From: a virus
Strand: one strand, 5' to 3'
Virus record (IMG/VR): IMGVR_UViG_3300036832_000321
Location: 1 to 42,552 of that record
DNA length: 42,552 nt
Shown here: positions 23,868 to 31,653 of the stretch, piece after piece
How the letters are laid out: each line of letters begins with the position of its first letter
Position numbering within the stretch: position 1 is the first letter of the stretch
Position numbers and translations under genes: made by a program
Notes under the pieces: generated by a model
Told to the model about the DNA's origin: nothing
Seen by the model: the letters and a program-made list of their open reading frames with translations, nothing else
Database searches by the model: none

Positions 23868-24158
23868 GTGAAAGATCGAGACGATCGCGGCGGCACAACC
23901 GACGACGACGTCGAGCCTGAGCCCGACGTCGTCGGCGAAGCAGCGAGTCGCGGTGAAGTGCTACGCGCGGTCGGAGACTTCCTCGCTGATCTGCACCCCG
24001 GCACTCGCTGGCGCCCAATCAAGCGAGCGCGCGGCAGAGATCATCGCGGACGTCTCGATCAGGCCGGGGGTCCGCTCGACGATCTGAGTGCGAGCGATCG
24101 CGGGCTCGCGCCACTCGCGCGCTGCACGCACGGCGACGAAGGCGAAGGTCAGGGATAG
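23868..24158 (+). CDS. Small protein from the rightward switch promoter, unknown
   Basis: A 96-residue frame from a GTG with GAGGGGG four bases before it, directly behind a well-formed promoter. The N-terminal 25 residues are acidic; then comes a helical part (GEVLRAVGDFLADLHPG). The last two thirds lie antisense to the 3' end of the integrase gene and look low in information. The place suggests a Cro- or Xis-like early regulator, but no such fold is recognised. The true 3' end may be uncertain. Confidence 0.35.
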   Translation: MKDRDDRGGTTDDDVEPEPDVVGEAASRGEVLRAVGDFLADLHPGTRWRPIKRARGRDHRGRLDQAGGPLDDLSASDRGLAPLARCTHGDEGEGQG

Positions 24159-25487
24159 CCAGTGACGCTTCGTCTCGATCGGGGCGAGATCGAAGGCGTC
24201 GACGACGAGCGCTTCGGCGGGCAGCTCGCCGATCCCGACGTTGGCGGCGCGGGCGACTCGAAGCTGACGCTCGGCGTCGGCGACAGCGTCGCGAGCGGCG
24301 ACGAGCTTGCTCTCGATCAGCTCGCGCTCGGTGTCGCTCTGCGCGGGGTTCGAGATCGCGAAGTCCTGGGTCGCGCTGAGCTTCGCGCGGGCGTCGTCGA
24401 GCACGACGGTCGCGTCGGCGACGGCGGTGTCGTCGAGCATCGGCTGCTCGGACCAGTCGGCGTAGGCGCGCTTCCACTCGTCGACGACGAGCTGCTCGAC
24501 GGGCTCGGCGGCGACGCTCATGCCGGGGCAGTCGCCGCCGCCGCGCGAGAAGCCGCAGCGGAGGTACAGCTTGCCGCTCGGGTGACGGAAGTAGGTCATC
24601 GACTTGCCGCAGAGCGAGCAGCGCACGAGGCCGGTGAGCAGGTAGGTCGTCTTGCTCGCGCGCTTCGCACCGCGCGCTCGGTTCGCACGTTTGTAGAGGT
24701 CCTCGGTCACGATCGCGGGGTGAGCGTCGGGCGTCTCACGCTCGCCGTTATGGGCGATCCCGAGATACGTCTTCGACTTGATCATGTCGAAGAGGCGGCT
24801 CTGGGTCCAGTTCGGTTGATGCTCGACGCCTTTGCGCTCGAACTTGCGCGGGAGCATCGCGGCGGCGTTGAGCGACTTCGCGATCTGGACCCACCCCATG
24901 CCCGACGCGCGCATCTCGAAGGCGCGCTCGACGATCGGGGCTTCGATCGGGTCGAGCGCGAGCGGTGTGCCGCGCCCGTCGGAGCGGCGATACCCGAAGG
25001 GAATCTGCAGGTGCACGCCGCGCTCGATCGCGTTGCGGACGGTTTTGTCGAGATGGTCTTCGCGCTTGTCGAGTTCGTTTTCGTTCATGAGCAGACGCAT
25101 CGTCGTGCCGATCTTGTCGCGCTTGAGCGAGAGATCGCCGTCGCTGCAGATGATCTCACCGTCGACGTCCTCGATGGCGGCGATCACGTCGAGCCCCTGA
25201 CGCATATTGCGCATGAAACGGTCAGAGTGAGCGGCGACGATCCCCGCTGCTTCGCCGCTCTTGATCATCGCGAGCGCGCGGCGAAAGCCGGGACGCTCGG
25301 CGGTCTTACCCGAGAAGTCTTCGTCGGTGATCAGGTTGTCGAGCAGCTCGACGCCGCGAGACTGCGCGAGCTGGTCGATCGTGCGCATCTGCTCGCTGAG
25401 CGAGATGTAGCGATCGCCCTTCGAGCGACGATCGCCGACGCGCGAGACGCGGGCGTAGGGGATGAATGGAAGAGCTGTAGCGGTCAC
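23961..25487 (-). CDS. int: Large serine integrase
   Basis: 508 residues from the GTG at 25487, which has ACGGAGGC five bases before it; an upstream ATG at 25517 lacks a good site and would overlap the putative attP. The resolvase domain begins IPYARVSRVGDRR with catalytic Ser15, then FSGKTAERPGFRRALAMI and AAHSDRFMRN. A recombinase domain follows (GVHLQIPFGYRRSDGRGTPL). A zinc ribbon has CSLCGKSM and CGFSRGGGDCPG, and after it come the coiled coil and C-terminus. It joins attP and attB for integration; excision would need the directionality factor encoded at 30367. Confidence 0.93.
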   Translation of the reverse strand: MTATALPFIPYARVSRVGDRRSKGDRYISLSEQMRTIDQLAQSRGVELLDNLITDEDFSGKTAERPGFRRALAMIKSGEAAGIVAAHSDRFMRNMRQGLDVIAAIEDVDGEIICSDGDLSLKRDKIGTTMRLLMNENELDKREDHLDKTVRNAIERGVHLQIPFGYRRSDGRGTPLALDPIEAPIVERAFEMRASGMGWVQIAKSLNAAAMLPRKFERKGVEHQPNWTQSRLFDMIKSKTYLGIAHNGERETPDAHPAIVTEDLYKRANRARGAKRASKTTYLLTGLVRCSLCGKSMTYFRHPSGKLYLRCGFSRGGGDCPGMSVAAEPVEQLVVDEWKRAYADWSEQPMLDDTAVADATVVLDDARAKLSATQDFAISNPAQSDTERELIESKLVAARDAVADAERQLRVARAANVGIGELPAEALVVDAFDLAPIETKRHWLSLTFAFVAVRAAREWREPAIARTQIVERTPGLIETSAMISAARSLDWAPASAGVQISEEVSDRA

Positions 25488-25516
25488 GGTTGCCTCCGTT
25501 CGTTGGTGAGCAACCA

Positions 25517-25566
25517 TAGTAGCTCATTCTTCCGTCCCCGTTGCGGGAGAGATGAAAGAGCTACTA
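25517..25566. other. Putative attP site
   Basis: A 50-bp imperfect palindrome directly upstream of the integrase gene. The outer nine bases (TAGTAGCTC and its complement) pair perfectly, and 18 of 25 positions pair in all. The centre is an asymmetric TT (25541-25542). Length, imperfect symmetry, central dinucleotide and position are all as in attP sites of large serine integrases. It could instead be an operator. Confidence 0.6.
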
Positions 25567-25812
25567 CACCGCGATCGCGCTCAGCTACACGGTTTTTCGA
25601 GAACTCGAAGGGTGTCCGGCCCGACCTAAGCCGCTCTGTCACTGCAGCTCTGCTGAGCGGTGGAGCTTCGGCAGGTGCGGGACTCGGCGTGAAAGCGCCT
25701 GCACCCGCCCTTCGACTAGACGCGAGCGAGACGCCGGACGGCGTCGAGGCAGTCAACCAGCGCGCGCCCGGCCTCGCTCGTGTCGGACCTGTCCCCGAGC
25801 AAGGAGGACGAT
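25567..25812. promoter_or_regulatory. Intergenic region before the early operon
   Basis: No convincing gene. It contains a palindrome TTCGAGAACTCGAA (25596-25609), a possible regulatory site. A weak promoter-like CTCGAA, 17 bases, TAAGCC follows it. No better rightward promoter is visible here. Confidence 0.35.
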
Positions 25813-26154
25813 CTGCGTTCCTACCTGCCCATCGTGGCGGCGATCTATGCCGCCCTAGTGCTGCTCGCCCCAACGAGCAGCGCGCAACCGATGAGCCCGT
25901 CGACGCTCGTCTCGGACTTTCTCTGCATCCACTCACACGAGGGGAGCTGGACCGATCCGGGCGCGCCGTACTACGGCGGGCTGCAGATGGACTGGCAGTT
26001 CATGAGCACCTACGGCGGCGAGTACCTGCGTGCCTGGGGCACCGCCGACCACTGGCCCCCGTCCGTGCAGATCGCGGTCGCGATGCGGGCCTATCTCTCG
26101 GGTCGCGGGTTCTACCCGTGGCCCAACACCGCCCGCCAGTGCGGGCTCATCTGA
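25813..26154 (+). CDS. Secreted Rpf-like transglycosylase
   Basis: 113 residues. The proposed start is CTG at 25813, five bases after a perfect AAGGAGG; a GTG at 25780 has no site. The N-terminus is a signal peptide (RSYLPIVAAIYAALVLLAP, cleavage near TSSAQP). The mature part matches the resuscitation-promoting-factor / transglycosylase-like fold: FLCIHSHEGSW (catalytic Glu), YYGGLQMDWQFM, YGGEYLRAWGTAD, QIAVAMRAYLSGRGF and PWPNTARQCGL, with two Cys that can pair. It would cleave peptidoglycan glycan strands outside the cell. It is not in the lysis cassette but right after the integrase region. Confidence 0.8.
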   Translation: MRSYLPIVAAIYAALVLLAPTSSAQPMSPSTLVSDFLCIHSHEGSWTDPGAPYYGGLQMDWQFMSTYGGEYLRAWGTADHWPPSVQIAVAMRAYLSGRGFYPWPNTARQCGLI

Positions 26155-29504: not shown

Positions 29505-30370
29505 GCGCCGAGTCGAATCTCGTCCCTGCGCCCGACGACGCCGAGATGGAGATCGGCTGGGTGCTGCTCGCCCCGATCCGCATCCCGAGCTACCAGCGCG
29601 AGGCGTTCGAGAATCGGATCAAGCGGCTCAGCCCGTTCGATACGCGAGCCTGCGGGACGCTCGAACTCTCGTACCGCGATCGCGTGCTCTGGGTCGTCGA
29701 CGGGCAGGCGCGTCGTGCGAAGGCGATGCGCGACGGGCTCGATCGACTGCCGGGGCGCGTCAACTACTACCTAACCGAGCCCGAGGAGGCCGAGATGTAC
29801 CTGCGGCTCAACCGGGACCGGCTGGCGGTTAGCGCGCTCGATCGCCACAAGGCCGAGTCGATCGCGCTCGACCCGCGTGCGATCGCGCTCGACGACGTCT
29901 TGCACCGCAACGGGCTCGTCGCCGCGACCGCATCGAGCAACGGGCTCGAACCGTTCCGCTCGATCAGCAAGGCCGAGTCGGTCTACGACGACGGCGGGGC
30001 CGAACTCGTCGAGCGGGTGCTCAAGCTGCTCATCGACGGACTGCCCGGCGACACGCATCGCTTCCGAGGTACGCTCGTCGGTGGGCTCGGGTTCTTCCTC
30101 GCTCGCGACTCGTGGGGCGCAGACGACAAAAAGGTGCTCGCGGCGCTTCGACGCTCGACGGGCACGCAGCTCGACGAGAAGATGCGCCACGCGCAGGCGC
30201 TCTCGGGCAAGGTCACGACGGGCTCGTACGTCTACATGGCACGAGCGATCGCCGTCGCGGTCTACCGCGAGCGCGGGGCCACGTGGAAGCCAACACGAAC
30301 GGCGACGACACCGGCACCGACCGACCCCGAGCAGCTCGACGTCGACGATGACGGGGGCGAGTCGGCATGA
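29501..30370 (+). CDS. ParB-like nuclease-domain protein
   Basis: 289 residues with GGAAGGAGG before the ATG. The N-terminal half has IRIPSYQREAFENRIKRLSP, ELSYRDRVLWVVDGQARRAK, and EAEMYLRLNRDRLAVSALDR, the ParB/Srx-like layout with a DGQ-R motif where ParB has a GxHR box. The rest is helical. A second ParB-like domain is fused to the methyltransferase at the start of the window, but the two are not close copies. Confidence 0.75.
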   Translation: MSAESNLVPAPDDAEMEIGWVLLAPIRIPSYQREAFENRIKRLSPFDTRACGTLELSYRDRVLWVVDGQARRAKAMRDGLDRLPGRVNYYLTEPEEAEMYLRLNRDRLAVSALDRHKAESIALDPRAIALDDVLHRNGLVAATASSNGLEPFRSISKAESVYDDGGAELVERVLKLLIDGLPGDTHRFRGTLVGGLGFFLARDSWGADDKKVLAALRRSTGTQLDEKMRHAQALSGKVTTGSYVYMARAIAVAVYRERGATWKPTRTATTPAPTDPEQLDVDDDGGESA

Positions 30371-31653
30371 GCCCCGAGCCGCTGATCAGCCTACAACGCC
30401 GTCTGACGATCGTCGGCGCGATCCGGGCGGGCGGTGAGAAGCCCGACCGGGGCGTCGGCAAGAAGCTCGAACACTGGCGGATCACGAGCCCGAGACGTCA
30501 GCTCGTCGAGCAGGCGTCGGCCCTTTACGGCGGGGCCGTGTCGAAGTGGACGAGCCCGATCGGCGAGGAGTGGCAGTGCTACACCGACGTCGACGAGCTG
30601 CCCGTGCTCGTGATGCCGAGCTACAGCGTGCGGCAGTCGTACGAACTCTGGGAGGGCGCGACGAAACGGACGCGGCTCTGCGACGGCGTCGAGGACGAGC
30701 TGAGCGGCGGGCCGTGCATCTGCAACGCCCAGGAGGACGACAAGTGCGATCTCTACACAAGGCTCGTGGTCTGTCTGCCAGCGCTCGACACGGTGCTCGG
30801 CTGGCGGCTGATCACGCGCGGAACGGTCGCGGGTCACGAACTTCCGACCATGATGGCGCTGATCAACGCGCAGGCGGGCGGGGCGACGTTCGTCCCGGCG
30901 AAGCTGCGTCTCGACCAGCGCAAAGGTGTCAAGGACGGGCAGACGGTTCGCTACGTCGTGCCCGTGCTTGACCTCGCAGTCAGCTACCTCGCCCTGGCAG
31001 GTCCCGCCGCTGACGGCTCGGCCCGGGAGCTGCCATCGGGTGCGTCTCCAACCCCGCACCCACCGAGGCGTGAGCCGACTGTCGAGCAAGCCCTGAGCGC
31101 CGTCGCCCAACCGGCTTCCCCGCAACGGAACCCAAGCCGGACGGCGGCGGCGTACGGGCCTGTCGACGATCTCGACATGGACTCAGTCCGAGCCCCGGCC
31201 GTCCCCTCGGAAGCACCGCAGCCGCAGCAGACGACAGCGACAGCACCGCCCGAGGCGGCGACGAGCAGCCAGACGAAGGCGATCACCGACCCGCAGGCGC
31301 GCAAGCTCAACGTCCTCGTCGGGAAGCTGCGACCCGATCATCTGACGACCGAGCATCTCTACCAGGCGGTCGCGAAGATGCGCAATCTCGACGTCGGGAT
31401 CATGGCCCAGGTGATCGAGGGCTCGATCGACGCCGACGGGGTCTTCCACTTCGGCCCGCTGCGCGACAGCCTGACGCGCGTCGAAGCGATGCAACTCATC
31501 GACCGACTCGTGCAGCTTGAGGGTCAGGCGGGCGTCGGCGAGACGGCAGGCGAGCAGCCAGAGCGTCCGGCGAGCACGTCTGCGGGTGATGCCGACCCCG
31601 GCCCTGACCCGTCGAGGCCGCTCGCGTTCGGCGAGTTCCCGGCCGGGTACTGA
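30367..31653 (+). CDS. Recombination directionality factor (phiC31 Gp3-like)
   Basis: 428 residues. The first 215 match what I know of the phiC31 Gp3 family: HWRITSPRRQLVEQASALYG, a WxSPIG turn, VMPSYSVRQSYELWEGA, RLCDGVEDE, PCICN, LYTRLVVCLPALD, FVPAKLRLDQRKGVKDG and YVVPVLDLAVSYLAL. That family reverses large serine integrases so that they excise. A Pro/Ala-rich linker (about 216-300) leads to a C-terminal helical domain (AITDPQARKLNVLVGKLRPD, later VEAMQLIDRLV) of a type appended to phage recombination proteins. The call is by recalled similarity. Confidence 0.72.
   Translation: MSPEPLISLQRRLTIVGAIRAGGEKPDRGVGKKLEHWRITSPRRQLVEQASALYGGAVSKWTSPIGEEWQCYTDVDELPVLVMPSYSVRQSYELWEGATKRTRLCDGVEDELSGGPCICNAQEDDKCDLYTRLVVCLPALDTVLGWRLITRGTVAGHELPTMMALINAQAGGATFVPAKLRLDQRKGVKDGQTVRYVVPVLDLAVSYLALAGPAADGSARELPSGASPTPHPPRREPTVEQALSAVAQPASPQRNPSRTAAAYGPVDDLDMDSVRAPAVPSEAPQPQQTTATAPPEAATSSQTKAITDPQARKLNVLVGKLRPDHLTTEHLYQAVAKMRNLDVGIMAQVIEGSIDADGVFHFGPLRDSLTRVEAMQLIDRLVQLEGQAGVGETAGEQPERPASTSAGDADPGPDPSRPLAFGEFPAGY

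Follow-up and report, generated by a model that had tools for sequence, protein, structure and literature searches.

The 50-bp imperfect palindrome at positions 25517 to 25566 is, with good confidence, predicted to be the attP site of a temperate phage with a serine integrase. The window, by which we mean the whole 42,552-nucleotide stretch of DNA analysed here, is an IMG/VR record of a soil phage, and its portal protein finds its best matches among annotated phages in Thermobifida and Streptomyces phages. The palindrome reads TAGTAGCTCATTCTTCCGTCCCCGTTGCGGGAGAGATGAAAGAGCTACTA and is symmetric at 18 of 25 positions, with perfect outer arms of 9 bp each (TAGTAGCTC/GAGCTACTA) and a centre formed by the non-palindromic dinucleotide TT/AA. 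The length, symmetry count, nine-base arms and central TT given in the original prediction were all confirmed by recount. Its interpretation of the palindrome as attP is supported by the type of the integrase, the design of the site, a comparable site in a related phage (G004), the exchange of the site together with the integrase and the presence of a phiC31 gp3-like gene. The features discussed below are collected in Table 1.

Table 1. Features at and around the candidate attP site, in window positions.
Feature	Position	Strand	Basis or remark
Large serine recombinase (integrase), 508 aa from GTG 25487	23961..25487	-	Domain, PHROG and structure-profile matches
Ribosome-binding site GGAGG	25493..25497	-	10 bases before GTG
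Possible -10 element TACTAT of integrase promoter	25516..25521	-	Overlaps integrase-proximal arm
Candidate attP, 50 bp	25517..25566	.	Symmetry; architecture per PMC3783163 and PMC3556126
Arms of candidate attP	25517-25525 and 25558-25566		Predicted zinc-domain motifs
Predicted crossover dinucleotide	25541-25542		TT on + strand, AA on integrase strand
Structured RNA, not part of attP	25600..25722	+	Between candidate attP and divergent gene at 25780
Divergent neighbour, small secreted lysozyme/transglycosylase-like (Rpf-like) protein	25780..26154	+	Weak matches
Candidate recombination directionality factor (phiC31 gp3-like)	30367..31653	+	PF18897 2.6e-27

The gene beside the palindrome had been called a serine integrase, and the call is borne out by its Resolvase (PF00239, 4.9e-17), Recombinase (PF07508, 1.6e-13) and zinc ribbon (PF13408, 3.6e-11) domains. 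It also matches the integrase family PHROG 95 (8e-64), and its profile matches include solved serine integrases such as the A118/LI C-terminal domain bound to an attP half-site (4kis). Judged by these matches, the open reading frame encodes a genuine large serine recombinase, complete with the three domains that such an enzyme should have. An ATG at 25517 overlaps the palindrome by one base, and 29 bases separate the GTG at 25487 from the palindrome upstream of it. The GTG is the better start, since GGAGG lies 10 bases ahead of it and this spacing is kept in kin (9–11 bases in five of six related integrases), whereas the ATG has no such site; the earlier preference for the GTG is upheld.

In the structure of LI integrase with attP, nine base pairs are read by the zinc domain, those at positions 16–24 of the 25-bp half-site (PMC3783163). 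The attP of A118, in its minimal form, is an imperfect palindrome spanning 50 bp, and crossover takes place over two bases in the middle (PMC3556126). The nine-base arms of the palindrome in the window occupy exactly positions 16–24 of the 25-bp half-site, i.e. those of the LI zinc-domain motif. The A118/LI attP of Listeria thus shares with the candidate the 50-bp imperfect palindrome, the 25-bp half-sites, the 9-bp motif at 16–24 and an asymmetric central dinucleotide; it differs in the arm sequence (TTTAGTATC versus TAGTAGCTC) and in the centre (GG versus AA/TT), and its integrase is distant. The Streptomyces phage phiJoe offers a close parallel in arrangement: its attP, no longer than 50 bp, sits immediately upstream of int, with a divergent gene on the far side. 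That attP, 18 bp upstream of int, was predicted from the same features and experimentally confirmed (PMC5311408). However, the divergent neighbour in phiJoe, g52, was a candidate directionality factor, whereas its counterpart in the window is lysozyme-like and has a structured RNA in front of it, the candidate directionality factor being encoded ~5 kb from the palindrome; the phiJoe centre is GG. In the Streptomyces phage SV1, a perfect inverted repeat (10-bp) around a spacer likewise predicted an attP that was later confirmed (PMC4068962), but there the site is 42 bp long with a 22-bp spacer and lies downstream of int, as compared to the upstream 50-bp site with a 32-bp spacer in the window. 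By analogy with such systems, the candidate fits known serine-integrase attP sites in its length, the position of its arms, its asymmetric centre and its placement, and the site is very probably an ordinary kind of attP in an undescribed phage.

If the palindrome is attP, an integrase dimer would bind its two 25-bp half-sites, the zinc-ribbon domains occupying the perfect outer arms of 9 bp (TAGTAGCTC) and the recombinase domains the inner part. The attP-bound dimer would then synapse with a dimer on the host attB, and staggered cuts at the central AA/TT, subunit rotation and rejoining would yield attL and attR. The phiC31 gp3-like protein may permit, or be needed for, the reverse reaction, excision. 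We infer all of these steps from the integrase family.

Related phages were gathered through portal and terminase searches, and 24 records were searched further. The nearest integrases found belong to three relatives (G004, G001 and G024) and are 34–38% identical to that of the window. In G004 (38% identical), a 50-bp site, TAGTGGCACTTTCGCTCGGCGCCGT/TTGGGAGCGAGCGGAACTACCACTC, lies 47 bp before the integrase start and has the same TT/AA centre. Its half-site pattern, TAGTGGCACTTTC, is in register with TAGTAGCTCTTTC of the window. None of 400 shuffles gave a half-site match as good, the site is the best-scoring 50-mer in 17.6 kb, and its symmetry by itself was matched by one of 1000 shuffles. 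The support from this comparison resides in the 13 outermost bases of each arm, and the nine-base motif is shared in part. Plain nucleotide identity between them (24/50) is not above background and was rejected as evidence. For G001 and G024 the half-site tests were not significant, with the symmetry matched in 117 and 88 of 1000 shuffles, respectively, so the support from related sites comes from one relative. Symmetry was also not significant in G002, G016, G019 and G020; the symmetric site of G010 was matched in 19 of 1000 shuffles, and its placement relative to int differs.

A second line of evidence comes from the borders of homology among the relatives. G016, with an integrase 29% identical, is homologous to the window up to 23928 and again from 25600, with no homology in between. 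As the homology breaks across 23929–25599, the palindrome and the integrase were swapped together as one block. Phage genes flank this exchanged block on both sides, so the site is intact and not a prophage junction. Tyrosine integrases take the place of the serine type in six other kin. When 23929–25599 was compared with L181–L186 and L174–L180 from the kin, several unrelated serine integrases as well as tyrosine integrases were seen in genomes that are otherwise related, and by these comparisons the integrase region is an exchange hotspot. It is noted that in one of the tyrosine-integrase contigs (G003; L175 and L180) the same integrase stretch is present at either end of the contig, at a spacing of 42376 bases, which suggests an end-overlapping assembly of a ~42.4-kb genome.

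Alternatively, the palindrome could be the operator at which a repressor controls the integrase promoter. The repeat borders on the start of the integrase gene, and its integrase-proximal arm is overlapped by a possible -10 element, TACTAT. A TANNNT motif is found 34–42 bases before the start in six of the seven integrases compared, the seventh (G024) having TATACT at -14; a scan for full sigma-70 promoters found none. Typical operators are 14–25 bp long, however, and a 50-bp dyad with nine-base arms at its outer edge and an asymmetric centre fits attP better. The repeat also changes along with the integrase in G016, its half-sites resemble those beside the related integrase of G004, and no better-scoring separate attP candidate was seen in the intergenic stretch. 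We therefore consider an operator in place of a recombination site improbable. A different matter is whether the palindrome could have two jobs, serving as attP while its integrase-proximal arm carries the -10 element of the integrase promoter. Such a dual role is possible but doubtful. If true, integration at the centre would swap the upstream half of the promoter for host DNA, resetting integrase expression in the lysogen.

Could the palindrome have arisen by chance in a GC-rich genome, with the attP lying elsewhere? Two other 50-mers of the window, at 24757 and 6138, also reach 18 of 25 positions, so symmetry alone is not unique or decisive in sequence of 68.5% GC; the palindrome itself has 50% GC. 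The palindrome at 24757 falls within the integrase coding sequence and was put down to coding coincidence. When symmetry is weighted by composition, 25517–25566 becomes the highest-scoring 50-mer of the window (18.7 versus 18.1 and 16.7 bits), a score that was still matched by 5 of 100 shuffles of the whole window. For some serine integrases, moreover, the attP lies downstream of int or far off, as in SV1 (PMC4068962). On the other hand, when the 292-bp intergenic stretch was shuffled 5000 times, no shuffle matched the weighted score and one matched 18 of 25. The palindrome thus exceeds chance when the search is confined to the neighbourhood of the integrase; in a blind scan of all 42.5 kb it does so only to a moderate degree. 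These intergenic shuffles, together with the comparable site in G004 and the cassette exchange, make a chance origin quite improbable.

A hairpin in the integrase messenger, acting as a terminator or leader element, is scarcely credible: the RNA fold is strong (-26.3 kcal/mol, z -6.6), but any DNA palindrome would give such a fold, a terminator scan found no T-run terminator, transcription from a promoter at the conserved TANNNT would begin past the palindrome, and G004 retains the arms, with mismatches, as an inverted half-site pattern.

The predicted attP is complemented by a second gene of the predicted integration system. The window shares with phiC31 the pairing of a large serine recombinase and a Gp3-like candidate directionality factor (PF18897), although the integrase of the window is only distantly related to that of phiC31. 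Fifteen related phages were examined for the PF18897 gene. It is present in seven of nine serine-integrase kin, where G019 is counted as serine type by inference from its integrase-start region, at which the contig ends, and in none of six tyrosine-integrase kin. The gene tracks serine integrases and not tyrosine integrases among the kin, which ties it to the serine system, and the product of 30367–31653 is a candidate directionality factor. The 32-kb contig of G019 opens inside the initial codons of its integrase gene (L193, positions 1–20), and this start is probably an assembly break.

An integrated copy was sought in several ways. No exact integrase peptides were found in viral and genome contigs, and no match to both palindrome arms as a DNA pattern was found in viral contigs. 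An alignment-guided integrase scan returned three relatives at 35–36% identity, two of them already known, and a further scan of this kind returned only ~25% identical Clostridia-type recombinases, which are of no use for attB. The viral and genome collections searched yielded no attL, attR, attB or prophage with this integrase, megablast of the region against phage records gave no hits, and the window has no tRNA gene. It should also be mentioned that the first gene of the window, at 8–1462 on the + strand, joins a ParB-like nuclease domain to a region with DNA-methyltransferase matches.

The stretch between the palindrome and the divergent gene contains a separate structured element. An RNA model built from five phages for 25600–25722 has three helices, with compensatory change in 11 of 22 pairs and 98% of cells paired, and RNAalifold agrees with this structure. 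The + strand is favoured by G-U pairs. The model matches kin outside its own alignment (G019, 2.4e-14; G010, 8.3e-11; L202, 2.6e-11), and the RNA is present in at least eight related phages. In most cases it precedes, by 20–100 bases, a small gene resembling those of lysozymes or transglycosylases, whatever the integrase type. Because of this position, independent of integrase type, it looks like the leader of the lysozyme-like gene. In the window, that gene has weak matches to PF06737 (0.0016) and RpfC (2.6e-4), both below the cut-off, and to a PHROG transglycosylase family (4e-4). C-di-AMP riboswitches are known ahead of cell-wall genes in actinobacteria. One such riboswitch has been reported for a peptidase (PMC9960051). 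The RNA found here matched no family in Rfam, including the c-di-AMP riboswitch family, and is a candidate for an apparently undescribed regulatory leader.

The window offers a full candidate set for integration and excision, comprising an integrase, an attP and a gp3-like directionality factor, in a group of ~43-kb metagenomic phages related to actinophages, and the attP is testable. Integrase–attP pairs of such kind, here with an integrase that shares so little identity with its nearest relatives found, can be turned into new orthogonal DNA-integration tools. Within the group, serine and tyrosine integrases have taken each other's place in phages whose portal or terminase genes are related.
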